Shown one piece after another: positions 1 to 18,357 of a stretch of DNA of 22,041 nt. Within the stretch, counting starts at the first letter, position 1; every line of letters starts with the position of its first letter. Below the pieces are notes generated by a model. It was not told the DNA's origin. It made no database searches and saw nothing but the letters and a program-made list of their open reading frames with translations. The position numbers and the translations under genes were made by a program. Origin of the DNA: a virus; the IMG/VR virus record IMGVR_UViG_3300030117_000628, positions 1 to 22,041 of that record. One strand, given 5' to 3'.

Positions 1-3000
1 CTACAATTTTCCAACGGGTCGAAGAGTTTGCGCCACTCGGCCAATCTACAAACGACGTACCATCATTGTAGTACACACGAATACCGTCAACTTGTTTTAC
101 ATTTTGGATATTCATGTTACTCATTTTTAAATTGTTGGTGTTAAAAGTAAACCCGCTATTATACTTGGGTCTAAATTCGACTCTTCCGTCACGACCAACA
201 AGTAGCGAAAACGTATTTGCAAGACCTTGTGTTATACCTGTTCCTGAGCCTTGTAACATTTCGTTTAGTACGGCAAGTTTGCTTCTGCCTCTTGCGTCCT
301 GAACAGACCCAAAACTGTCTAAGTCTGTTGCGCCTGAATACCCTGTTTGTGTTATCGTCATGTTGTTTGTTAGTGGAACGTTGTTAATGTCAGATAGCGC
401 AGAAAGACCGGATTGTGAAAGCCAAGAAATAGTAGCGCCGTTGTTCTGTAAAAAGCGGATTTTATCACTTTCGTAAAACGTACCGCTATTTTCAGATTTT
501 ATGTACCCATCAACTTGCATCATTAATCTGTTAGGTTGAGATGCCGAACAGGTGTTATAAATTTGTATTTCATCAAAGGTCCCGGTTGCCGTGTTGCCTG
601 ACGAACTGCCTGATTTAACTTGTAACGTACCGGCTTTGTTGCCAATTGCAGTTCTCCATACCGTGCGCCATGTTGTTGCGTCTGCTTCTGTTGTGGTGGA
701 GTGGCTTTGGCTCAGTAACGCCACACTGGTCAATTCTGCGGGAACGTCTGTTTTACCTTGGTACTCAAATGAGTCACCTTGCACGATACCATAGCCCCTG
801 TTTGTTCCTGATACCGTTGCGTTACCTGCCCAATCCATCATTTGTACTCCTGATGTATGGCCCAAACGTATAAGAGTTGACGACGTTGTTAGGCTATTTA
901 CAAGTCTCATGTATCTTGCCTGTGAGTTTTGGGCGGAGTTTGTTGCCGAAGAATGAATCTGCGCTGATTCTAACTCTCTCCACATGGCTTGTTTAATGCT
1001 ATCGTATCTGTTAGCGGGGTCGATTTGAGAATCGGGTATGTGTTTGATAAAAACGCCTTTGAGGATATTGTCACACACAACGGAACCTGCCGGGTGGTCA
1101 GCGGCTACTGCCGGACCCGTGACTCCCGTAAGCGTGTGTGTTGATTTACCTGTCCATTGGAATGTAAGACCATTTACGGAGCCTGTGCCACTGGTATCAA
1201 ATCGACTACCGTCTGTAAGCACAATACTCGTCGCTCCTGCGGTGTACGCTGAACCCGATGCAATCGTTCCCTCTTCCTTGTGTGTCCATGTGTAGTAATA
1301 CAAACTTTCTGTTTGTTCCGCTCCGTTTCCTGTCAGCCCACGAATCATACCAATAGATTGTAATTGGTCTGACCCGGTAGCCCCTGATTTAAATGAACTT
1401 TGAGGCCAATAGTAAGCGTTGTTTAAATACATTGTGGTATCATTTGCAGCAATGTATTGTGTTGCGCCGTTACTGTTTGCCGTAGTTTCTGTAAGCGCAG
1501 TTACACTTGACATAAACCGATGAGCGTTGGGGTGTTGTGTAATTGGCGTTTCAGAGTTTAACGCAGTTGGTGGCGCTTGCCTCCAGTAGTTATCCAATAA
1601 AATAGGCACACCTTCTACGTCGACAGTAAAATCACCAAGGGTTTTGTTGCCGCCGGATGTTTTGCTTATATTGCCGTAATTTGCTTCTGTGTTTAGATTA
1701 AAGAACGGCGAGCAATCAATAAGCAAAAATGAACCTGCCTTTGACTCCCAACTGTCGGCAGAACCCAAAGAAGCAAACGTGTTACCACTAAAGGGTTCAA
1801 CGGATGCGTCAACTTCCCATAGGTCAATTTCTTCTCCCACTTTTAAATCCGTAAATACGGGACGGTCTTCTAAATTTTCACCAAGTAAGTGTTCTGCATA
1901 AACGAGAGAGACTTCATAATTTTCAAAGGCAGGATATAACGCGCCCCACGATTTTGTTTTATGTCCACCATCTGCGTCTGCAAATCCATCGTTTCGCATA
2001 TCGGCAAATAAGACCCAACAATGTTTATAGTCATTGTCAATGTATCTTAGACCCATTAGTGATTGCGCGGGATAAGTCCTTCCTATTTGGTTTGCGGTCA
2101 TGTGTACTTGTATGTCAAAACTGACTGCGGTGTGCGTACCGGTAGAATCATAGTGGTTACTACCGCCCCAATCGCTAATCTTAAACGCTTTAAAATTCAC
2201 GGTGTGGTCTACGGCAAGGTTACCTGACGGGGACGTTCCTGAAGTTGGTTGTGCGTAAGCAATCGGACAAAACGGCTTGGTTACAAAATCAATGTTGGTG
2301 CCGCCTACACCCAATGTAGTTTCATAACTTTCTCCATTGGTAGCAAATGCGTTTTGCGTTCGACTTTGTTGCCAAAATATGTAAGTATCATAAAATGTAG
2401 AAAAGTAATATGTGTTACCGTTGGTGTCTGTATAGGAAGACGGAAGAAGTGTAAAGGTAGTAGATGATGGGACACTATAAACATAGTAGAAATTCTCATG
2501 CTCCCAATCTAATCCGTAACCATTGTCGTTAGACGCGGCAAGAAGTGTGCCTGACATTTGTCTTGTCGGTTCTACGTTGTTTGTGCTTAAACCGTACATG
2601 ATAATCATATCGCCCTGTGTAAAACTGTGCGCGGCTGACGTAGTAAATTTAGCATAGGAGGTACTTGTAACCTCTACTTTGTTTACTGTTTTAGATGTGT
2701 CACTCCCACTTACCATTACGTTTGCGCTTGTAACATACAATGATTCCGTAGGCTGACTACTGTCAACAGTTTGGTTAGCCCAATTCGGTGATGTAAGGAA
2801 ATACCCGGTAGTTTGTGGTTTAAATACATCCATAATTAAGGCAGAAGCGGTATTTTCACCTGCGCTTCTGTCGTTAATCATCTGAAGTAATCCGGCATTA
2901 CTTCTACCGGTATAAATATCACTACTAGCGTTTAAAAGAATGTTTGTTGAATTAGGTGCAAGACTACTTCCTGTTTTAATGGTGTTAAGGCCAAAATTAT

Positions 3001-5194
3001 ATTGTCCTGTTGTTCCTAATCTGTAATTAGCAATCTTGCCGAATTTTTTGGCAAACCATTTGGATTTGCACAAGTCACGCACCCATTCGGAATGGATTGA
3101 GCGATTTTGAATTTCCGTACCGACGCCTGTAATACCTGAACTGTAACCAGCCCACTGGTCTTCGGCATCGTTTGGCCCGTTAGTGTCTTCGTTGTTGTAA
3201 ATTTGTATAGGGTGAGCAGAGCCTAACTGCATTCGCTGGTCTGTCGTTTTAGAATAATCTTGTTCTCGACCTAACCCTAAAGTTGGATTGAGGGGCTTTA
3301 GTTTTCTAACACCAAAGTACATGGACTCTCTAAAAGTTTCCATTTCAGAATTTCGATGTTGTATGACTTGGTTGGGACTTACACTGTTTGACCCAATGTC
3401 CCACGCAATCATTTCGTTATTAAGTCTTTTCAATACGTCGCTTGCTTGTATTGTGATATTTTTTGTTTGGTCTTTGTTACTTTGTTTTACGTTACACGCT
3501 GTTACGTCGCCTCGCCACAGCATTTTGTATCTACCAATTGCTTCCGTGTTATACCAAAGAACAAGTTCAGAACCTCCGGCACCACCACTGGCAAACATAC
3601 TTAACAGATTCGGACGGTCGTTACCATCGTCAAGCACTTCAATCTGCATAGTAGACGCTTGGTTAACTTGTTTGTTGATACTCATGCTTTCTACAAGCAC
3701 GCTTGCCTTATCTGCCTCTCCACTTGCGTCTGTTACTACGCTGTCGTTAAGTGGGTGATAAACGGCCACGCGGTCAAGACAAGTCATATACATACAATCA
3801 CTGTCATCTGCACTGTTTTTCATGGACAACTCCCAACCATACATATCCTCAATTTCCCAAGGAGCGCCCGCCTTTGAACCCATAGACACGGGGCCGGAGA
3901 CTTTGGCACCATCAACGTAGTAGTAGTATTTTTGATTAGTAAAATCGAGTGCAATGTCTATATCTGACCAACGTTCATCGGCACTGTAAGTAGAATCAGC
4001 AGAAGAAGTGGATGCAACGTATGGGTAATTTGCCTGAAGACTTGAAATTGTAAATTCTAATGTGACTGCTGATTGATAAGAGCCGGGGTCGGCATAAACG
4101 TAGCCGTCTTGGTCTAAAGACAAACCAAGGTCAGGGCCTACCTGACCAAACCCAAATCGTAACTTGTAAGTGCCATCTTGTACTCTTAGGTCACACGCAT
4201 CACCGTTACCGTGTGCGTCGACACCATCAAGTGATATTCTCATGTGGAAAATGTCACCGTCGCCTTTACAGTTTAATGCGCCTTCATAAAACATGACGGG
4301 CCTGTATGTATTGTTGGCCCTGTAAGTTTGGATGCAAAGGAATGGCTTGCCGGATGGGGATTTTAGTGGGGCGTACAATGCCTGTGTACCGTTACCGCCT
4401 AAGTTGCTATCGGTAGAATCTTTGTACGCGGAAGAACGTGTCCGTGGAATGGCTTCTCCGGCTAAGACACCGACCAAGTTAACCTGCTGACACATTAGAG
4501 ATTCATCTGAACCCAATTGTGGACTTGACGCAGGTCTTCCTTCGTTTCCATCGAAGTAACCGGCGGTTGAGTGACTACCGTCAGCCTTAAACGAATGTTC
4601 AATTACGTTTCTTCGCCCGTAACTTGAATCCCAATCCATAGTCGGAACCCAATACCTGCCAATGTTAGTACCCACGTCTTGTGACGGCCTGAATGCGTAG
4701 CCGTTTGTGAACCAAATAAACCTGTCATCTCCTGTCAGAGAATCTTCTCCGTTGCCGTAATCACCTGAAGGGTCGTAACGGAATCTGTTAGCGTGGGGAA
4801 TACTGTCGGGGTATCGTAAGTTTGCACGTCCAATGTATGTGTTGCCCTGTCCTAATCGCATAGGGTCGTGTGTAAGCCACTCTTGGACGCCGCTATTATG
4901 CAGTAGTGGTTGCCCGCTAATGTCTTCTCCTGTGGACGTACCAACCACGTCGTTTTCTACGCCCACGGTTGTCGTGTACGCACCGGTAAGAGCGCCTCGC
5001 TCGACGTATGAGAACCGATACCTTGGGTTCAGTGGGGCTTCACCGTTTAGTGGATTGCCGTAGTGACTGCTTGTGTGTACAATAGATGTGGCAGTAGTCG
5101 CGTTCATATCATCAGGGATGCACCTTGCACCCATAAAATCGTCAAAGTAATGGGCAAGCCAAACTGTGTACCGTCCGCCAAAATTATTGTTCAT
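1..5194 (-). CDS. Giant modular tail-tip / baseplate hub protein (3' end beyond window)
   Basis: I read this frame codon by codon: it is open for 1731 codons from ATG at 5194 to the window edge, so the C-terminus is missing. The start lies one base after the tape measure stop, behind AGGTGG with a 5-base spacer. The N-terminus reads MNNNFGGRYTVWLAHYFDD. Residues about 314-484 look like a concanavalin A/laminin G-type sandwich (WSDIDIALDF, then YYYYVDG). Residues about 499-600 resemble a phage hub barrel of the gp27/Tal type (STMQIEVLDD, YKMLWRGDV, ITIQASDVLKRL). Residues about 846-920 hold an HSFTQGD motif. Residues about 1312-1373 hold an AGATSIVLTDGS module shared with the connector gene. 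From residue 1639 the text (LLVGRDGRVEFRP, VDGIRVYYNDG) resembles the second half of a hub, suggesting a hub interrupted by large insertions. Position after the tape measure supports a tail-tip role in host contact. The hub reading is an inference from fold-like patterns. Confidence 0.8.
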   Translation of the reverse strand, partial: MNNNFGGRYTVWLAHYFDDFMGARCIPDDMNATTATSIVHTSSHYGNPLNGEAPLNPRYRFSYVERGALTGAYTTTVGVENDVVGTSTGEDISGQPLLHNSGVQEWLTHDPMRLGQGNTYIGRANLRYPDSIPHANRFRYDPSGDYGNGEDSLTGDDRFIWFTNGYAFRPSQDVGTNIGRYWVPTMDWDSSYGRRNVIEHSFKADGSHSTAGYFDGNEGRPASSPQLGSDESLMCQQVNLVGVLAGEAIPRTRSSAYKDSTDSNLGGNGTQALYAPLKSPSGKPFLCIQTYRANNTYRPVMFYEGALNCKGDGDIFHMRISLDGVDAHGNGDACDLRVQDGTYKLRFGFGQVGPDLGLSLDQDGYVYADPGSYQSAVTLEFTISSLQANYPYVASTSSADSTYSADERWSDIDIALDFTNQKYYYYVDGAKVSGPVSMGSKAGAPWEIEDMYGWELSMKNSADDSDCMYMTCLDRVAVYHPLNDSVVTDASGEADKASVLVESMSINKQVNQASTMQIEVLDDGNDRPNLLSMFASGGAGGSELVLWYNTEAIGRYKMLWRGDVTACNVKQSNKDQTKNITIQASDVLKRLNNEMIAWDIGSNSVSPNQVIQHRNSEMETFRESMYFGVRKLKPLNPTLGLGREQDYSKTTDQRMQLGSAHPIQIYNNEDTNGPNDAEDQWAGYSSGITGVGTEIQNRSIHSEWVRDLCKSKWFAKKFGKIANYRLGTTGQYNFGLNTIKTGSSLAPNSTNILLNASSDIYTGRSNAGLLQMINDRSAGENTASALIMDVFKPQTTGYFLTSPNWANQTVDSSQPTESLYVTSANVMVSGSDTSKTVNKVEVTSTSYAKFTTSAAHSFTQGDMIIMYGLSTNNVEPTRQMSGTLLAASNDNGYGLDWEHENFYYVYSVPSSTTFTLLPSSYTDTNGNTYYFSTFYDTYIFWQQSRTQNAFATNGESYETTLGVGGTNIDFVTKPFCPIAYAQPTSGTSPSGNLAVDHTVNFKAFKISDWGGSNHYDSTGTHTAVSFDIQVHMTANQIGRTYPAQSLMGLRYIDNDYKHCWVLFADMRNDGFADADGGHKTKSWGALYPAFENYEVSLVYAEHLLGENLEDRPVFTDLKVGEEIDLWEVDASVEPFSGNTFASLGSADSWESKAGSFLLIDCSPFFNLNTEANYGNISKTSGGNKTLGDFTVDVEGVPILLDNYWRQAPPTALNSETPITQHPNAHRFMSSVTALTETTANSNGATQYIAANDTTMYLNNAYYWPQSSFKSGATGSDQLQSIGMIRGLTGNGAEQTESLYYYTWTHKEEGTIASGSAYTAGATSIVLTDGSRFDTSGTGSVNGLTFQWTGKSTHTLTGVTGPAVAADHPAGSVVCDNILKGVFIKHIPDSQIDPANRYDSIKQAMWRELESAQIHSSATNSAQNSQARYMRLVNSLTTSSTLIRLGHTSGVQMMDWAGNATVSGTNRGYGIVQGDSFEYQGKTDVPAELTSVALLSQSHSTTTEADATTWRTVWRTAIGNKAGTLQVKSGSSSGNTATGTFDEIQIYNTCSASQPNRLMMQVDGYIKSENSGTFYESDKIRFLQNNGATISWLSQSGLSALSDINNVPLTNNMTITQTGYSGATDLDSFGSVQDARGRSKLAVLNEMLQGSGTGITQGLANTFSLLVGRDGRVEFRPKYNSGFTFNTNNLKMSNMNIQNVKQVDGIRVYYNDGTSFVDWPSGANSSTRWKIV
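1076..1261 (-). repeat. AGATS-type beta module, copy in the hub protein
   Basis: Residues about 1312-1373 of the hub contain AGATSIVLTDGSRF, then WTGKSTHTLTGVTG, then AADHPAGSVV. The same order of motifs occurs in the connector at 13318-13497. The amino acid match is close, but synonymous positions differ widely, so this is an old or separately acquired copy, not a recent DNA duplication. Confidence 0.75.
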
Positions 5195-5195
5195 T

Positions 5196-8100
5196 CTATC
5201 CACCTAATGCTACTCTAAGCGACCGACCCTCTAAGTGAGCGTCAATCGCATCTCCTATCTTCCGTGCCGCCTCGTCTATGCTGAAGAAGCCGTGGAAGTT
5301 GTTGGTACTACTCACAATGACCTCTTGGTGATTGTACAGTGTGCCGACTCCCTGTTGTATAACTTGTCGGTATAGCGAGCCTGTTAGTGCCGCTGTCCGA
5401 CCACCAAAGAACAACTCGTCCCGCGTGCTTTCAAAGTCCTGCATAAGACCCACGGCCTGTCGAATTGGTTCTGTAATTCCTAATTCAATAGCCGTTCCAT
5501 CAAATTGTAATGCCGCGTTAAGAACAAGACCCAAAGCAACGGTAGATTCTACACCGCTATCCAAAATGTATTGGTAGGCTTCCTGCCAATCCTTTGTTAC
5601 TAATTGTGTAACCGTTGTATTTACATTTGTAATATTGTCTAAGAAATCAGCATCCATTGACCTTAAGAATCCCAAAAATCCTTGGTCACCTGCCAATTGT
5701 TGTAAACGTCTTTCTACCCCTTCGTCGCCCTCGTACATAGTACCCATGTAGACATCAGGGTCAAGTAATTGTCTAATGTGCGTTCCACTACCCCTTCTGC
5801 TCGCGTCTAATTTGTCTAAATCGCTTACAACGTCTTCAAATTCTAATCTTCCTGACTCAATCATTTTTCGGTAAAATATAATCGTATCAGCCGCAGAATT
5901 AAATGCGTCAATATCATTGTTAGGGTCAAGACCTAAGAATCCGGCATTTGGGTCGCTAATAGGATTTCTGATTGCGTTAGCGGCGGCAACCAATATATCT
6001 ACCATTTCTTCGTTTTGTTTTGCCGTCAATTGGTCATTGTGTAGTTGTGCGCGTTTTATTTCAAGCAGACGACTGTTTTGTGTTATTTCTTCTTCCAATT
6101 CGCTGATTCTTTCTTGGTATGCTTGTTTCATATCTCTGTCAGCATTTTTCATAGATTTTTCCATTGCCTCTACTTGGCTTCTCATTTCATCTATTCTTGC
6201 TTGCGTACCGGTAGCAGTTTCGTCTGCATATTGTTGTGAAAGCGCAACGATTTTATCAAAACTCAAAGCAATACTGCTCATACCTGCTTCAATATCTTCG
6301 GTTTCATCTGCGATTTTTGGCATTACATTGCCCCATTTTACGGCGGCAACGGCGGCAATAGCAACTGCCGCACCAATACCTGTCCATATCATAAATGCTC
6401 TTGTTGCTTTAGCGGCGGCGGCCATTTGGTAAGCAAATTTACCCATTTCAAATACCATTGCGGCCATTGTTAGGGACATCGTAAGAACCTGCGCCTGTGC
6501 CTGTTCGGTGTCATTTAAAAATCTTCTTAAGGCCAAATTTGTTCCCATCAAAGCAACGTTGAATCCCATTGTAGCACTACTAAAATCTTTCATTCCACCT
6601 GCGCCTTTCTTGCTTGCCTTGGACGCTTCCAATACCTTTAGATTGTGAGCGGCAGTAGCGGCGGCGGCTTTTGCCTTTTCGTCGTTAACCCGACCTTGGG
6701 CCATTGCTTCTTGGTGCAAGGCGGCTGTTAACTCCTTTTCGTTCATTGTTAGCATATTCAACGTTACGTTAAGTGGTTGTGCCAAACCTAACATTTCAGT
6801 AACGTGTGTATTCACAATATCTTGTGCCGCCGCAAGTTTTTTCTTTGCCTCTGCGGCCCCTTCTTCAGCCATAGCAATGCTTCTTGCCGCGACCAATTCT
6901 CCTTCGGCAAGGTGTAATTTTTGTTCCGCTTGAACAATTTGTTCTTTTTGAGCGATAGTAATGTTTTCAATTAAATGCGCTTTTGTTCTCATACCGGCTT
7001 TTTCCAAATCTTCATACGCCTGTGAACCTATCAACTGCGTAAGATATTCTTGTAATACCGTCTTTTTTCTTTTTTCAAGACCAAGATTCATTCTCAGATG
7101 AATTTCTTCCATACTGAGCAAATTGTTTTTTGCTTTTGTGTATGCGGTTTGTGCTTTTGTTTGATAGGTTTGTAATTTAGTTAAATCATAACCTCGGGCC
7201 TTCATTACATTCATAGCCCTATCCAATTCTAATTGTATTCGCAATTCGCTTGAACCTTTACCAATTGCATCGGCATAAGCCTTTGCTCTTACGAGTTTTT
7301 CCTTTTCTTTATTGTTGAGTATTTCTTGATTAAAAGCCGCCTTTTCTACTTGTTTGTTAATTGCTTCTTGTTGTACTGATTCTTGGGCAAGAAGGTTACG
7401 TCGCGCTTCTTCTAAGTTTTTTATTTTTTCAAGATTTTGCTCCCGCGCTACTTGTTGTTGGTATTTGATATAACCTTGATTGATTTCTGTTTCAGACATA
7501 GCAATGTTTAAAGCCATACCTGAACTTTGCATATTGTAAAAATCACCTAAATTTGAACTCATAGAACGCATAACAAGACCGTATGCCTCTAACCCAATCT
7601 TAGCAGAAAGAATACCCGTATAAATGTTAAACCAACCACTCCAAATTCTTAGATATTCAGACACAACAATACTTGCTCTTGCAACGCCACTAACAATACC
7701 TGCAATACCAGTCCCTTCTTCGTCCATTAGACTTACAATGACCTTTCGATATTCTAATCGTATTTTCAATTGCTCTTCAAGAGCGGGCATCATGTGTTCT
7801 GATAGTAACCGTTCTTGGTTTTCCAATTCGGTGTTTAGTACCTTTACACTCATTGCGGTTTCTCGTAATTTCCTGTCGCGTTCTTCTTCGGCAGGGAACA
7901 ATCGGTCATACGCATTCTTTTGTAGATTGAGTAGTCGCTCATGGTTTTCCATTAACTTAATGAATCTGACGTAGTGTCGATTTCCTGACACAGACTGTGC
8001 AATTGCCTGTTTTTCAGCGGCGGTAAATTCTTCCCACCGTGGAGCCAAATCCGCCATAATTTCCGACAACGGACGCATTGTATTCGTGCTTTCGTCCATG

Positions 8101-8915
8101 ACATCAACGTATTGACCAAGAGCATCTGCCGCCCCACTGATGTTACCACCGAGACGTGCGTAAATCATACGAAGCGCACGACCGGCCTTACCTTGCTCTT
8201 CACCGGCTTCAATCAATAGTGCGGATTGTGCGGCCATGCTTTCGATAGATTCACCGGTTAGAGCGGCCTGTGCCGCGAAGTTATTCATTACGTCAGTTAT
8301 CTGACTCATAATGGCAACGCTTGTGTTTTCTACGGAGTTGAGTGCGTCCATTACACGAATCGTTTCTTCGTGCATAATTTTGAGTTTTTCACCGGCATCT
8401 AAAACTGCAAACTGTTGTTGGTTGAAGTCACCCATCATAAAGTTTGTCTGTTGTTGGAGTTGAATCATTTTCTTCATGGCATCTTCATTCGTCATACCAC
8501 CAATCATACCAAAGGTCATACCCAATTGAGTTCCCATAGGGACTGCTTCAGGTCCAAACATAGTGGACAATTGAGCCATACGCGCACCGGCTGACAGTGC
8601 TTCTTCTGCGCCGAATCCATACCCGGCACCCATAGAAATGATTTGGTCTTCTACTGACCTTGCATCTTCCATTACGGAAAAGAATTTTTCAAACTCAACA
8701 CGGGCCAATCCGGTTTCAATACCGAGTGTAACCATCTGTGATGTCCAAGCGTTTGTAATGTCAACAAGACCCTGCATCGAATCTCCGATGCCCGCAAGCG
8801 TATCGAGTGTAGCCGCACGAAGCATTACCTGTTGTGCCTTTACGTCTTTGATTAGACGTGCAGTTTGGTAACGTATCATTACGTCAAAAAAGACTCGGGA
8901 TGCACCTTGTCGCAT
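5196..8915 (-). CDS. Tail tape measure protein
   Basis: 1239 residues. Tape measure proteins fill the tail tube lumen, set tail length and are passed toward the host at infection. The protein is the longest complete one here, is mostly helical, and lies between the chaperone pair and the hub, which is the canonical place. The N-terminal 250 residues (LATLAGIGDS-like and ALSAGARMAQLSTMFG text) resemble the phage tail minor tape domain. Residues about 470-760 are rich in Ala, Glu, Lys and Gln and look like long helices. About residues 780-865 form a hydrophobic stretch including GIGAAVAIAAVAAVKWG, and residues about 900-960 look like a coiled coil (QERISELEEEITQNSRLLEI). The start is ATG behind GAGGTGAT. 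At about 1.5 angstroms per residue, a rule of thumb for siphoviruses, the tail would be near 185 nm. No lysozyme or peptidase motif was seen. Confidence 0.93.
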   Translation of the reverse strand: MRQGASRVFFDVMIRYQTARLIKDVKAQQVMLRAATLDTLAGIGDSMQGLVDITNAWTSQMVTLGIETGLARVEFEKFFSVMEDARSVEDQIISMGAGYGFGAEEALSAGARMAQLSTMFGPEAVPMGTQLGMTFGMIGGMTNEDAMKKMIQLQQQTNFMMGDFNQQQFAVLDAGEKLKIMHEETIRVMDALNSVENTSVAIMSQITDVMNNFAAQAALTGESIESMAAQSALLIEAGEEQGKAGRALRMIYARLGGNISGAADALGQYVDVMDESTNTMRPLSEIMADLAPRWEEFTAAEKQAIAQSVSGNRHYVRFIKLMENHERLLNLQKNAYDRLFPAEEERDRKLRETAMSVKVLNTELENQERLLSEHMMPALEEQLKIRLEYRKVIVSLMDEEGTGIAGIVSGVARASIVVSEYLRIWSGWFNIYTGILSAKIGLEAYGLVMRSMSSNLGDFYNMQSSGMALNIAMSETEINQGYIKYQQQVAREQNLEKIKNLEEARRNLLAQESVQQEAINKQVEKAAFNQEILNNKEKEKLVRAKAYADAIGKGSSELRIQLELDRAMNVMKARGYDLTKLQTYQTKAQTAYTKAKNNLLSMEEIHLRMNLGLEKRKKTVLQEYLTQLIGSQAYEDLEKAGMRTKAHLIENITIAQKEQIVQAEQKLHLAEGELVAARSIAMAEEGAAEAKKKLAAAQDIVNTHVTEMLGLAQPLNVTLNMLTMNEKELTAALHQEAMAQGRVNDEKAKAAAATAAHNLKVLEASKASKKGAGGMKDFSSATMGFNVALMGTNLALRRFLNDTEQAQAQVLTMSLTMAAMVFEMGKFAYQMAAAAKATRAFMIWTGIGAAVAIAAVAAVKWGNVMPKIADETEDIEAGMSSIALSFDKIVALSQQYADETATGTQARIDEMRSQVEAMEKSMKNADRDMKQAYQERISELEEEITQNSRLLEIKRAQLHNDQLTAKQNEEMVDILVAAANAIRNPISDPNAGFLGLDPNNDIDAFNSAADTIIFYRKMIESGRLEFEDVVSDLDKLDASRRGSGTHIRQLLDPDVYMGTMYEGDEGVERRLQQLAGDQGFLGFLRSMDADFLDNITNVNTTVTQLVTKDWQEAYQYILDSGVESTVALGLVLNAALQFDGTAIELGITEPIRQAVGLMQDFESTRDELFFGGRTAALTGSLYRQVIQQGVGTLYNHQEVIVSSTNNFHGFFSIDEAARKIGDAIDAHLEGRSLRVALGG

Positions 8916-8932
8916 GGTATCACCTCACTATG

Positions 8933-9214
8933 TCACTCCATGAATCCGCCGTCTTTTAACAGTTTCACCGCATCGGCGTCTGAAAGGGCTTCTCCGCGTG
9001 CTTGGCGTCGTTGATTACGCCTTGCTACCGCTCCACCGGCATCAGTCTTACCTTGGGTGCTGTCAATGCGCTCTTTGACTTGGTCGCTAATTTCGCTTGC
9101 TACACACAGGTCTAACTCAAGCCTATGCTGACCGCCCTCGCCGTGATAACGCTCATACAGGTCACTTGCAGTCAACGCTTTGAACGTTTGACACAAGGCC
9201 GGAGCGACACGCAT
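8933..9214 (-). CDS. Tail assembly chaperone, downstream (gpT-like) frame
   Basis: This frame encodes about 93 residues if it starts at ATG 9214 (MRVAPALCQTFKALTASDLY), and it is also open upstream through GTG 9220. It is charged, with an Arg- and Gln-rich middle (ARRNQRRQARGEALSDADAV). It sits directly after the first chaperone and before the tape measure gene, as the T part of lambda G/GT does. The stop of the upstream gene (TGA 9219-9217) falls inside this frame's open region, and a slippery heptamer lies just before it. I infer that it is made mainly as the C-terminal part of a 210-residue frameshift fusion. Independent initiation at ATG 9214 behind GGAG is the alternative. In siphoviruses the G and GT forms coat the tape measure and recruit tail tube subunits. 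Confidence 0.8.
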   Translation of the reverse strand: MRVAPALCQTFKALTASDLYERYHGEGGQHRLELDLCVASEISDQVKERIDSTQGKTDAGGAVARRNQRRQARGEALSDADAVKLLKDGGFME

Positions 9215-9223
9215 AATCACTCC
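9201..9223 (-). promoter_or_regulatory. Hairpin abutting the chaperone frameshift site
   Basis: GGAGTGA (9223-9217) can pair with TCGCTCC (9207-9201) to form seven pairs, one of them U-G, around a 9-base loop. The loop contains the ATG at 9214, and the 5' arm contains the GGAG that would serve it. The structure could hinder independent initiation of the second chaperone frame. It starts right at the slippery site instead of the usual 5-9 bases downstream, so a stimulatory role is uncertain. Confidence 0.4.
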
Positions 9224-9564
9224 AAAGGGATTGCGCCATCCGGGTCGTCGCCACGGATAAACATAAGTAGCATACGCACTTCGTCACCGGTCAACGTGTT
9301 AGGGTCAAAGCCTTCAGTTAGGATGCAGTTAGGCAACCACTGTGCGGCTTGTTGGTCGATGCCCGCACCTTCCTTGTCCAACAATTCCATGAAGTCCATG
9401 TGTTGTTCATCGGTCCAGTCGGCTACGTTATCGCCGAACTGTCGACACTTGCGAATCACACGGGCCTGAATGGCCTCAATCTTCATCTTTTCTAATCCCG
9501 ATGCTTGGCGCACCGTTAGTTTCTGTCCATCATCTAATTCAAATTCTCGCTTCAATACGGGCAT
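9217..9564 (-). CDS. Tail assembly chaperone, upstream (gpG-like) frame
   Basis: 115 residues, ATG behind GAGGAG with an 8-base spacer. The N-terminus (MPVLKREFELDDGQKLTVRQ) is a short beta region of a type frequent in tail chaperones, followed by a helical body (EQHMDFMELLDKEGAGID; LTGDEVRMLLMFIRGD). I recognise it by length, helical and acidic character, position just before the tape measure, and the in-phase slippery heptamer at its last codons. The family is poorly conserved in sequence, so the call rests mainly on context. It would be produced in excess over the frameshifted G-T fusion, and both forms would be absent from the mature virion. Confidence 0.82.
   Translation of the reverse strand: MPVLKREFELDDGQKLTVRQASGLEKMKIEAIQARVIRKCRQFGDNVADWTDEQHMDFMELLDKEGAGIDQQAAQWLPNCILTEGFDPNTLTGDEVRMLLMFIRGDDPDGAIPLE
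9223..9229 (-). promoter_or_regulatory. Slippery heptamer C_CCT_TTG for -1 frameshifting
   Basis: The last codons of the first chaperone are ATC CCT TTG GAG TGA. The heptamer CCCTTTG is in the correct phase for X_XXY_YYZ: CCT and TTG can slip back to CCC and TTT. After a -1 slip the ribosome reads GGA GTG ATT ATG and continues in the second chaperone frame to its stop at 8933. A -1 slip at exactly this place is the known mechanism for lambda G/GT and most long-tailed phages. Confidence 0.75.
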
Positions 9565-9600: not shown

Positions 9601-9798
9601 CTATGCTACATTGTACCACACTACGGTTAGTGTGATGTCGTTACTATCTTTCTTTCTGCTCGTATCGCAAGAGATGATAACATCGTTGTTTGCGATTGCC
9701 GCACGGAACGCAGTTTGGACTGCCGCCGCCGTACCTGTAAATTGACTGACCTCTAGTTTGGTCTTGTCGCTAATGACCGTACCACCATTGTTTGCCAT
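9601..9798 (-). CDS. Small protein between tail tube and chaperones, unknown function
   Basis: 65 residues, ATG preceded by TGAGG, in which the tail tube stop codon overlaps the ribosome binding site. The protein starts MANNGGTVISDKTKLEVSQF and ends in a beta-like run (DITLTVVWYNVA). It has no signal peptide, membrane segment, Cys pair or catalytic motif. The middle TAAAVQTAFRAAIANND could be one amphipathic helix, giving a beta-alpha-beta outline. I do not recognise a family. Its place beside the tail tube gene suggests a tail tube accessory or a minor tail protein. The spacing, good ribosome binding site and lack of a better frame make it a real gene. Confidence 0.75.
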   Translation of the reverse strand: MANNGGTVISDKTKLEVSQFTGTAAAVQTAFRAAIANNDVIISCDTSRKKDSNDITLTVVWYNVA

Positions 9799-9808
9799 CT
9801 AAAACGCC

Positions 9809-10876
9809 TCACAGTTTGTGCATTTGGATTGTGCCGTTAGCGTGGTCGTTGAAGACTGTCTTTGACATTGCGTTAGCAGGGTTTGAGCCATCTGAGTCGT
9901 AAAGAGCCGTGAAATTCATGCTCATGGTCTGTGTGTCTCGACCGCTTACAGTGCTTGAAGCCGCCTCCCAACGAACCTTGTACAAATCAATAGTTGTTGG
10001 ACTTACGCCATCTGTAATCAAAAGTTGGATTGCGTAGTCATCAGCCGCCGCATCGGGATTAAACTCAAGACCAGCGGCAGTAATCATTTGAGTGTATGTT
10101 GGTTCGCTCTCTACTGCCGTGTGGATAACCTTTGCGAATTCAACGCTACCTGTAATTTCACGTCGTTGTGGGGTTGGTGCGCGAACGTAAGTCGTGCTTC
10201 CCAATGCACAAGCATTGTCAGTATCGAGGTTGTTTGTCCAATCAATGTTAATTGATTTAACAAGTGTACTTGCCTGTGCGTCTTCTAAGAATTTAACGCT
10301 ACATTGGCGGAAGTGCATAGCGTCAATACCTGCACCGCAAAACTTAGGAGTGACTAACGTTGATACGGCGGACTCGCTTTTACCGACCCAATCGCTACTG
10401 ACCATAACGTACTCGTTTAGGTTTGCGCTGATACTGAGGCGGTTGCACATCATACCTGTGTATGTGTGTTCTTTTTCTTCACGACCAATTTCCATTGTAA
10501 AGGAAGGTAAGTCTTTGTTTGTGACTTCTGTGAATGTGTGCGTCCCGGTTGATACTGAGGGTTCTCCACCGTAAATACCATAGAAATGCAAGCCCATAAA
10601 CATATCAGGTTGCATAGCAAAGTTTAGACCGCCTTCCGAGTATTCCTTACCTTGTTGGCTTTTTGATACACCAAAATGCGACATATCAGCACGGTACATT
10701 GTTTCAAATTGATGTTGAATTGACTCGTCGTCAACCTCGCCTCCGATGTAACTCGCGCTGTATGCGGAGTTATATGCAACCATGCCGGAATCAGTTCCGT
10801 ATGTCAGGGTTTGGTTTGTTTGGTTAGTGGTTTGTTCCGGTGTAAGGAAGACGTAGCGATTTACGAATGAAGCCAT
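9809..10876 (-). CDS. Major tail tube protein
   Basis: 355 residues from ATG 10876 (MASFVNRYVFLTPEQ). An in-frame GTG three codons upstream lies inside AGGTGA, which is the ribosome binding site for the ATG with a 5-base spacer, so I prefer the ATG. The protein is beta-rich, with paired segments typical of siphovirus tube subunits: LPSFTMEIGR, LSISANLNEYVMVSSDWVGK, and SINIDWTNNLD followed by REITGSVEF. The text near residue 180-250 (specific binding-like strand, then thr-rich strand, then REITGSVEF) is characteristic of tail tube proteins where a strand pair builds the inner barrel. It lies between the tail terminator and the chaperones, as expected. Because there is no sheath gene beside it, the tail is probably non-contractile. 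It is longer than a minimal tube protein, so an extra surface domain is possible. Confidence 0.8.
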   Translation of the reverse strand: MASFVNRYVFLTPEQTTNQTNQTLTYGTDSGMVAYNSAYSASYIGGEVDDESIQHQFETMYRADMSHFGVSKSQQGKEYSEGGLNFAMQPDMFMGLHFYGIYGGEPSVSTGTHTFTEVTNKDLPSFTMEIGREEKEHTYTGMMCNRLSISANLNEYVMVSSDWVGKSESAVSTLVTPKFCGAGIDAMHFRQCSVKFLEDAQASTLVKSINIDWTNNLDTDNACALGSTTYVRAPTPQRREITGSVEFAKVIHTAVESEPTYTQMITAAGLEFNPDAAADDYAIQLLITDGVSPTTIDLYKVRWEAASSTVSGRDTQTMSMNFTALYDSDGSNPANAMSKTVFNDHANGTIQMHKL

Positions 10877-10921
10877 AGTGGTCACCTATACTCGGTTTAG
10901 GAGTCATTTGTTACTTAAATG

Positions 10922-13134: not shown

Positions 13135-13671
13135 TTAGTCCACCGTCCCAAGATGTGCAATGCGACGCAAGTTTGTGGTCGCTCTTTCACGAAGCATATT
13201 ACCACGCATACCACCGTCGATACCGCCATCTTGGAAAGCCGCTTCGTCTTCTAAATAGTAAGACGCGGCCAAATCAGCGCAGACTTCACGAAGGATGTGA
13301 GCCATTTCGCCCTGTTGTACTGTGGCACCGCTTGAGTGGTCAGCAGTAACACCTGTGACCCCTGATAGGGTATGTGTGGATTTCCCCGTCCATGCGAACG
13401 AGTCACCATCAATGTTACCGTTGCCGGACGTGCCGAACGAAGAGCCATCCGTCAATACGATACTGGTAGCACCTGCGGCCACCGCACCGTTCAGTGTCGT
13501 CTCTCCTGTCTCACGGCTCGGTGTAGTGCGGCCATAGTATCGGAATTCTTGGTCGATGTCGATTGACGCACGGCGAATTGCCGAACTGACACGACTTGAA
13601 GAACGGTCACGTTGTTGAGCATTTAGCCCTAATCGTGAACCCACATCAGCCGCCGAACAGTAAAACGCCAT
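13135..13671 (-). CDS. Head-tail connector (gp6-like adaptor) with inserted beta module
   Basis: 178 residues, ATG behind AGGTGAT. The ends form a helical adaptor: residues 5-48 (CSAADVGSRLGL; SSAIRRASIDIDQEFRYYG) and residues 121-174 (EMAHILREVCADLAASYYLE; RERATTNLRRIAHLG). This is the outline of the HK97 gp6/SPP1 gp15 class that binds below the portal. Between the helices, residues about 59-118 are a beta-rich insertion containing AGATSIVLTDGSSF and WTGKSTHTLSGVTG, which recurs in the hub protein. The insertion probably projects outward from the connector ring. The order connector, neck, terminator, tube is canonical. The gp6-like reading is moderately secure; the insertion is directly visible. 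Confidence 0.75.
   Translation of the reverse strand: MAFYCSAADVGSRLGLNAQQRDRSSSRVSSAIRRASIDIDQEFRYYGRTTPSRETGETTLNGAVAAGATSIVLTDGSSFGTSGNGNIDGDSFAWTGKSTHTLSGVTGVTADHSSGATVQQGEMAHILREVCADLAASYYLEDEAAFQDGGIDGGMRGNMLRERATTNLRRIAHLGTVD
13318..13497 (-). repeat. AGATS-type beta module, copy in the connector
   Basis: Residues about 59-118 of the connector contain AGATSIVLTDGSSF, NIDGDSFAWTGKSTHTL, SGVTGVTADH and SGATV in the same order and nearly the same spacing as hub residues 1312-1373. It appears as an insertion between two helical halves of the adaptor. Confidence 0.75.
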
Positions 13672-17445: not shown

Positions 17446-18357
17446 TCACGAACGAACACCAGTCAACTTGTAAATTCTGTTGTTTGTGTTAGCCGACGCA
17501 CCATCTTGGTGTTCGTGGACAACAGTACCCCAATACGAAGTTAGAAGCCATGAGTAACCGACACCCTCAATTCGGGTCAACTCGGTTTCCATGTAACCTT
17601 CTCCGTTGTATTGGAAGAACTCTGCGGTTTCTCCACCGGGGATTAGCAAGAGTGCATCGTTACCGATTGCACTTGACGAACCGTAGTCACGGGTGTACTT
17701 GATGCTGATTTTACCGACGCGACCCATGTGGTCTGCGAGGGACTCAACAACGTTTCCGTAAAGTTGTGTGTTCAACATTGCACTTCGCTTGTCAGCAGGT
17801 AGAACAAGAGCAAGGCCCTCGTCACCGCTTACACGGGCGTTTGCAAAGATAGCGTCCATTGCGGTTAGCAAGTCGGACTCTTCGTCAGCAGTTGCGCTAC
17901 CGAATGTTGCGGTTGCGGCACCGGTCTGACCTGCACCTGCGTAAACTGCGGACAACACGTTGTTGTCAATCTTGTCTGCGCGAGCGCGGACAATTGCCAT
18001 CTGTTGGCGGTCCATGTTCTCCCATGTCTCACCGCGTAGACGTACTGAATCAAGGAAGACACATCGACCCTGACCCTTTTGCAAGGATGCTAGATACGAG
18101 GATGTACCAATCTTGGTTGGGTCAACGACTGCGTTGTCGTCGATTGGGTACTCAAAAGTACCGTCAACACCAGTGTACCACTTGAAGGTCATCCAAGGCA
18201 CAGTGCGAACACCGACCAAGTCTGTTGCGATAGCAATAGTGGTTGACTGAAGTTGGATAAAGTCACGGAGCGTCTGCTCAAGGACTGAATCTGCTTTACC
18301 GAATGGCCCTGCGGCCGCTTCTACGTTCATAATTTGCTCTAATGTTTCATTGCTCAT
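17446..18357 (-). CDS. Major capsid protein, HK97 fold
   Basis: 303 residues, ATG behind AGGAGG with a 7-base spacer, the strongest ribosome binding site in the window, as expected for the most abundant product. Residues 1-50 form an acidic helix and arm (LEQTLRDFIQLQ), followed by an E-loop-like region (RTVPWMTFKWYTG, GTFEYPIDD) and the spine-type helices (NMDRQQMAIVRARADKIDNN, ESDLLTAMDAIFANARV). Residues 181-240 (GLALVLPADKRSAMLNTQLY, NDALLLIPG) and the end (SYWGTVVHEH, NRIYKLTGVR) fit the A and P domains. The length is that of the mature form without a delta domain, which agrees with scaffold being supplied by the upstream gene. It lies after the decoration protein and protease, in the standard order. 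Confidence 0.88.
   Translation of the reverse strand: MSNETLEQIMNVEAAAGPFGKADSVLEQTLRDFIQLQSTTIAIATDLVGVRTVPWMTFKWYTGVDGTFEYPIDDNAVVDPTKIGTSSYLASLQKGQGRCVFLDSVRLRGETWENMDRQQMAIVRARADKIDNNVLSAVYAGAGQTGAATATFGSATADEESDLLTAMDAIFANARVSGDEGLALVLPADKRSAMLNTQLYGNVVESLADHMGRVGKISIKYTRDYGSSSAIGNDALLLIPGGETAEFFQYNGEGYMETELTRIEGVGYSWLLTSYWGTVVHEHQDGASANTNNRIYKLTGVRS

Follow-up and report, generated by a model that had tools for sequence, protein, structure and literature searches.

A conserved slip site predicted to join G-like and T-like tail chaperone frames by -1 frameshifting in uncultured, probably archaeal viruses

The window analysed here, the whole 22,041-base IMG/VR record IMGVR_UViG_3300030117_000628, carries on its minus strand a putative tail assembly chaperone locus, in which a G-like frame is followed by an overlapping T-like frame in the -1 phase. 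Judged from the comparison with related loci, it is very probable that a programmed -1 frameshift joins both frames of this G/GT gene, the host probably being marine archaea. Frame 0 (9564..9217) has the end GCA ATC CCT TTG GAG TGA, so that CCT and TTG are frame-0 codons and the heptamer C_CCT_TTG, at 9229..9223, lies in the phase X_XXY_YYZ; this heptamer and the resulting 210-residue fusion, both described in the initial annotation, were confirmed. After a -1 slip, the window reads GGA GTG ATT ATG CGT and onwards up to the stop at 8933. The features of the locus and its neighbours are as follows:

9217..9564, minus strand: G-like tail assembly chaperone, frame 0, 115 codons and TGA
9223..9229, minus strand: slip heptamer C_CCT_TTG (C_CCU_UUG), conserved in phase
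8933..9222, minus strand: T-like domain in the -1 frame (GVIMRVAPALC...GGFME), aligned between the window and 22 loci
8933..9564, minus strand: predicted G-T fusion of 210 residues, translated through the -1 slip
9217..9219, minus strand: frame-0 stop TGA, 10 nt past the first base of the heptamer
9212..9214, minus strand: candidate own ATG of the second frame with GGAG ahead; the ATG is not conserved in the family
9202..9222, minus strand: window-specific 7-bp hairpin immediately 3' of the heptamer
9230..9241, minus strand: place of the Shine-Dalgarno (SD)-like stretch of the relatives, consensus approximately GAGGGTGCAGTC; the window copy is degenerate (GATGGCGCAATC)
5196..8915, minus strand: tape measure protein of 1239 aa, directly downstream (PHROGs tape measure, 7.9e-17)
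9809..10885, minus strand: tail tube protein, upstream (PF18906, 1.5e-15)

Most ribosomes, we infer, would stop at TGA 9217 and release a 115-residue G-like protein, while a minority would slip back one base at C_CCU_UUG and continue in the -1 frame to the 210-residue G-T fusion. In this slip the tRNA-Pro would move from CCU to CCC and the tRNA-Leu from UUG to UUU, and the predicted fusion would read ...DDPDGAIPLGVIMR at its junction. The second frame is also open for about 50 nt upstream of the slip, as in any overlap, and nothing suggests that it is read there.

Conservation of the slip site

A scan of IMG/VR with the capsid protein of the window resulted in 80 loci, 22 of which extend to the chaperone genes, whereas a scan with G alone as a single protein found no relatives. 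Three further scans with G alignments led to a total of 141 distinct DNA sequences. For the codon-level comparisons, 71 representatives with less than 85% fusion identity were drawn from the first 109 sequences.

In all 22 loci from the capsid scan the T frame lies in the -1 phase and CCCTTT is in phase, and the -1 phase of the second frame was found in every relative with a T match (141 distinct relatives). The motif T_TTZ is in phase in 141/141 relatives and the full heptamer C_CCT_TTZ in 130 of them, comprising 95 CCCTTTG, 18 CCCTTTA and 17 CCCTTTT; the other 11 read N_CCT_TTT (9) or x_CAT_TTT (2). The length of the fusion ranges from 203 to 224 aa in the full-length relatives, and the distance from the heptamer's first base to the frame-0 stop amounts to 7, 10, 13, 16, 19 or 22 nt. 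An explanation of the two frames as a sequencing indel or a decaying gene would be conceivable for a single contig, which may hold an error, and a decayed gene would resemble two frames. Since the same phase and the same site recur in 141 distinct loci from many metagenomes, this explanation is refuted and its probability negligible.

The codons of the slip site are also conserved beyond the needs of the protein. In the fusion alignment, 196 codon columns were scored for synonymous conservation in excess of the codon-usage expectation, with a mean of 0.11 (sd 0.17), while the three slip codons reached 1.00 (CCT, in 71/71), 0.94 (NNC) and 0.83 (TTR) and are thereby the top three columns. At the codon ahead of CCT the amino acid varies among V, I, P, L, A, C and T, yet the third base is C in 70/71. 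The C-ending form is kept at this position even though no Val codon is rarer than GTC and no Ile codon rarer than ATC. Elsewhere in the same genes, in-phase X_XXY_YYZ motifs occupy 55 of 14,448 codon positions (0.4%) and an in-phase CCCTTT occurs once. Because this background is low compared to the 130 of 141 relatives that keep C_CCT_TTZ, the slip site, as far as sequence comparison can tell, exceeds a chance motif and is under selection. The proposal of the initial annotation, a canonical -1 signal joining G-like and T-like frames that an alignment of related loci should reveal, is thus strongly supported by phase, site and synonymous codons.

Several observations weigh against frameshifting. 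The first CCC is lost in 11 of the 141 relatives, the window carries GGAG-TGATT-ATG, which is suited to a separate translation of the second frame, and sequence searches with G, T and the fusion gave no convincing match to a family or a named phage. With regard to the last point, the fusion had no match in the phage collection either. In a fold search with the AlphaFold model of G (pLDDT 87), the PDB match ranked first was 2OB9, the tail assembly chaperone of HK97, albeit a weak one (E 0.3), and the matches in BFVD include several annotated tail assembly chaperones with probabilities of 0.7-0.96. The chaperone assignment is carried by gene position and frame architecture: the locus sits between the tail tube gene and the tape measure gene, which is the position of G/GT in lambda.

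Starts of the second frame and relaxation of the heptamer

In 71/71 representatives, the T domain has a conserved [FY]K[GA] core starting at +45. Ahead of this core, 34 of the 71 contain no ATG and 20 contain no ATG, GTG or TTG. Since so many representatives have no early start in the second frame, the fusion is, by this comparison, the only route to a second-frame product that is common to the whole family. For the window itself a separate T product may be possible, because GGAG-TGATT-ATG is present there; the suggestion that the second frame yields mainly or only the fusion therefore fits the family but not necessarily the window.

Taken further, the second frame could be a separate gene translated from ATG 9214, by reinitiation or by an SD sequence of its own, with no functional frameshift. 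The GGAG five bases ahead of the ATG in the window would agree with this, as would an ATG overlapping the frame-0 stop (TAATG or TGATG) in 26/28 sequences of one clade, described below. Such a gene would have no ATG ahead of the core in 34 of the 71 representatives and none of the three start codons in 20, and it leaves both the invariant CCT and the nearly invariant C before it unexplained, so that we regard it as highly improbable. Altogether, -1 frameshifting is strongly supported, because phase, site and synonymous constraint are kept and many representatives contain no early ATG. For the annotation of this virus group, this would mean that the T domain has to be joined to G and not called as a separate gene.

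The losses of CCC are not scattered over the family. While CCC is kept in 113/113 sequences with G or A as the last base of the heptamer (Z), it is lost in 11/28 sequences with Z = T, all 28 of which keep T_TTT. The loss of the heptamer, named beforehand as an observation that would refute the signal, therefore does occur, but all 11 relatives concerned keep the phase and U_UUU. Although Phe is encoded by TTC in 44% of the other codons in the Z = T clade, the slip site stays TTT. The 28 sequences form one clade comprising 9.4% of the tree length, on which parsimony counts seven CCC changes, on the protein tree as well as on the DNA tree, some branches being weak. Within this clade (L210-L260, including L258 and L259), the slip site with its A-site TTT is eroded down to GTG/GTA CAT TTT.

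The tRNA of UUG or UUA re-pairs imperfectly on UUU. A perfect A-site re-pairing on UUU would explain that the loss of CCC is confined to Z = T. The family can tentatively be read, at somewhat less than even odds, as a natural mutational series of -1 slippage on ribosomes of archaea, in which UUG or UUA needs CCC in the P site and UUU frees it. If this holds true, slippage by the A-site tRNA alone would be enough in these hosts. The graded losses allow precise predictions on which tRNA contacts count.

This interpretation is confounded with coupled reinitiation, since the Z = T clade usually has the stop-overlapping ATG. Frameshifting could act everywhere and reinitiation could additionally supply free T where the ATG overlaps the stop, relaxing the heptamer. 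The confinement of the CCC losses to a clade with an overlapping ATG would be expected from such a combination, while the retention of U_UUU in all 28 sequences despite the frequent use of TTC would not. Among the exceptions, L259 lost CCC without an overlapping ATG, which speaks against reinitiation as the explanation, and L210 kept CCC without an overlapping ATG, which speaks in its favor. Two exceptions are too few and do not decide the matter; we consider the combination of both routes unlikely, though clearly less so than a separate gene.

Candidate stimulators

In the window, positions 9222-9216 can pair with 9208-9202, resulting in a hairpin with a spacer of 0 nt from the heptamer. Accordingly, the seven-pair hairpin without spacer noted in the initial annotation is present and takes up the GAG of GGAG in its stem, whereas the ATG, which was thought to be hidden as well, lies unpaired in the 7-nt loop. 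A role of this hairpin as stimulator and as mask of the second start would be in line with the fold z of the window, which ranges from about -2.6 to about -4.7 in stretches of 30-60 nt from the heptamer onward. Against the masking stands the position of the ATG, and against the stimulation that, without a spacer, a ribosome on the heptamer would presumably melt the stem; a canonical 3' structure would lie at a spacer of 5-9 nt, the spacer of the window hairpin being 0 nt. Moreover, at least 6 of the 7 pairs are possible in just 3/71 representatives, and L014 and L083, the relatives closest to the window, reach 5 and 4 pairs. Because the representatives and the nearest relatives fail to keep the pairs, the hairpin is not regarded as functional, and it is very unlikely to be a stimulator.

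Over the representatives, the mean fold z was -0.9 to -1.3 for 60-nt stretches beginning at offsets of 0-12 nt, counted from the heptamer's first base, compared to about -0.1 to -0.7 elsewhere, so that the excess near the heptamer is weak. A universal downstream stem was sought, and no stem of at least 5 bp was common to over 21% of the representatives. In one clade (L177-L190), a 9-bp stem begins 6 nt 3' of the heptamer and is 98% paired in 10 sequences, while the pairing amounts to 30-51% in a slid comparison. Since the variation is one-sided, the covariation does not prove this stem, and its role as stimulator is suggestive.

Upstream of the site, the predicted pairing to the 3' end of the 16S rRNA peaks directly ahead of the heptamer, the only place where it is stronger than under synonymous randomisation (mean z of about -0.35 to -0.6). 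In addition, Glu at -11 is encoded by GAG in 39/56 cases compared to 28% elsewhere. The P values of the GAG/SD-like and stem tests assume independent sequences and are too small. Within this limit, an SD-like stretch ahead of the site is favored beyond the coding need. The candidate is comparable to the upstream SD that acts as stimulator in E. coli dnaX (PMC8211752), from which it differs in its distance to the heptamer of about 7 nt, its variability and its putative role. Probably the stimulators differ by clade, with an upstream SD-like stretch in many, the 9-bp hairpin in one, and no family-wide downstream element.

Known systems, host and neighboring genes

Frameshifting of the lambda G/GT type is classical. 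As in lambda, the frames overlap between the tail tube and the tape measure genes, and toward the end of G a -1 slip on X_XXY_YYZ would give a long and a short product with a common N terminus. The differences concern the heptamer, G_GGA_AAG in lambda and C_CCT_TTG here, and the proteins, for which no similarity to known chaperone families was detected at the sequence level. By analogy only, G would form a coat on the tape measure protein, and tail tube subunits would be brought in by the T part of the fusion.

Since the window fragment carries only structural genes, the assignment of the host rests on the relatives. Among 18 related records of 59-74 kb, PolB was found in 18/18 and an ERCC4 nuclease in 12/18; control genomes were positive for the latter only in archaea. 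One closely examined relative contains an archaeal-type RFC small subunit (7e-41) and a Hef-like nuclease. The best coverage and score for PolB were obtained with haloviruses, HCTV-5 and HVTV-1 being nearest at about 24% identity. The search for PCNA was essentially negative, with none above the cut-off in the 18 records, and no tRNA genes were found in two long relatives. From RFC, Hef, ERCC4 and PolB, the archaeal host that the initial annotation had raised as a condition is probable; in our estimation the host is in all likelihood archaeal, while Poseidoniales are a guess.

The clamp loader of L162 is located at L162:12469-13413; the 312-residue open reading frame (ORF) at L162:9029-9964 was rejected as clamp loader. 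A tblastn search against phages gave nothing for this ORF or the Hef-like protein. The same 67.6-kb relative (L162-L163) also encodes DNA methyltransferases and an ArdC-like anti-restriction protein.

For the haloarchaeal viruses HVTV-1, HCTV-1, -2 and -5, the gene of the tail assembly chaperone has been reported to contain a -1 frameshift (PMC5009743, PMC8211752). These viruses resemble the present group in being tailed and are nearest to it by PolB; in HVTV-1, G_GGA_AAG is readable in the sequence and the tape measure gene follows immediately after the chaperone frameshift. The interest that the initial annotation attached to a documented archaeal case is tempered by these reports. While the reported sites are A- or G-based (PMC5009743), the present one is C_CCU_UUR with Leu in the A site. 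According to a 2021 review, only one case of -1 frameshifting has been demonstrated in archaea, viral cases being reported and little studied (PMC8211752). No relevant paper on CCCUUUG as shift site was found in the literature; the coverage of this search was incomplete, so that the result is not evidence of absence. The frameshift itself is already known in tailed viruses; what is new is a widely conserved further case with a pyrimidine heptamer, giving a large and deeply conserved set of predicted sites in uncultured, probably archaeal viruses.

Magroviruses and other Poseidoniales viruses (Aoguangviridae, Satyavativiridae) are marine and tailed and encode PolB, a clamp loader and an ERCC4-type nuclease, and the annotation of Aoguangviridae includes a TAC gene (PMC10768690, PMC10160649). 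The relatives share the gene content of PolB, clamp loader and ERCC4-type nuclease with them; they differ in their contigs of 59-74 kb compared to genomes of 90-100 kb and in the result for PCNA given above. No paper joining magroviruses and frameshifting was found, the sole match containing the word in its reference list only.

For the capsid protein of the window (17446-18357, minus strand), viral contigs contain at least 81 relatives. Among 50,697 phage records it was not matched at all and among 84,980 GTDB genomes no match was confirmed; the scan of the latter gave no provirus or binned contig. The capsid relatives form a virus group of considerable size, no member of which is named in the phage and GTDB collections.

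Between the tube gene and G, the window contains a gene of 65 aa (9601-9798, minus strand). A 65-aa gene is present in few relatives, with an identity of 97% in L014, 86% in L078 and 80% in L058, whereas the tube and G of L078 and L058 are just about 43-51% identical. It looks like a small tail gene that was recently exchanged or is very constrained. Finally, two different structural proteins of the window (13135-13671 and 2-5203, both minus strand) have a module in common, reading AGATSIVLTDGSSFGTSG...WTGKSTHTLSGVTG and AGATSIVLTDGSRFDTSG...WTGKSTHTLTGVTG, respectively.
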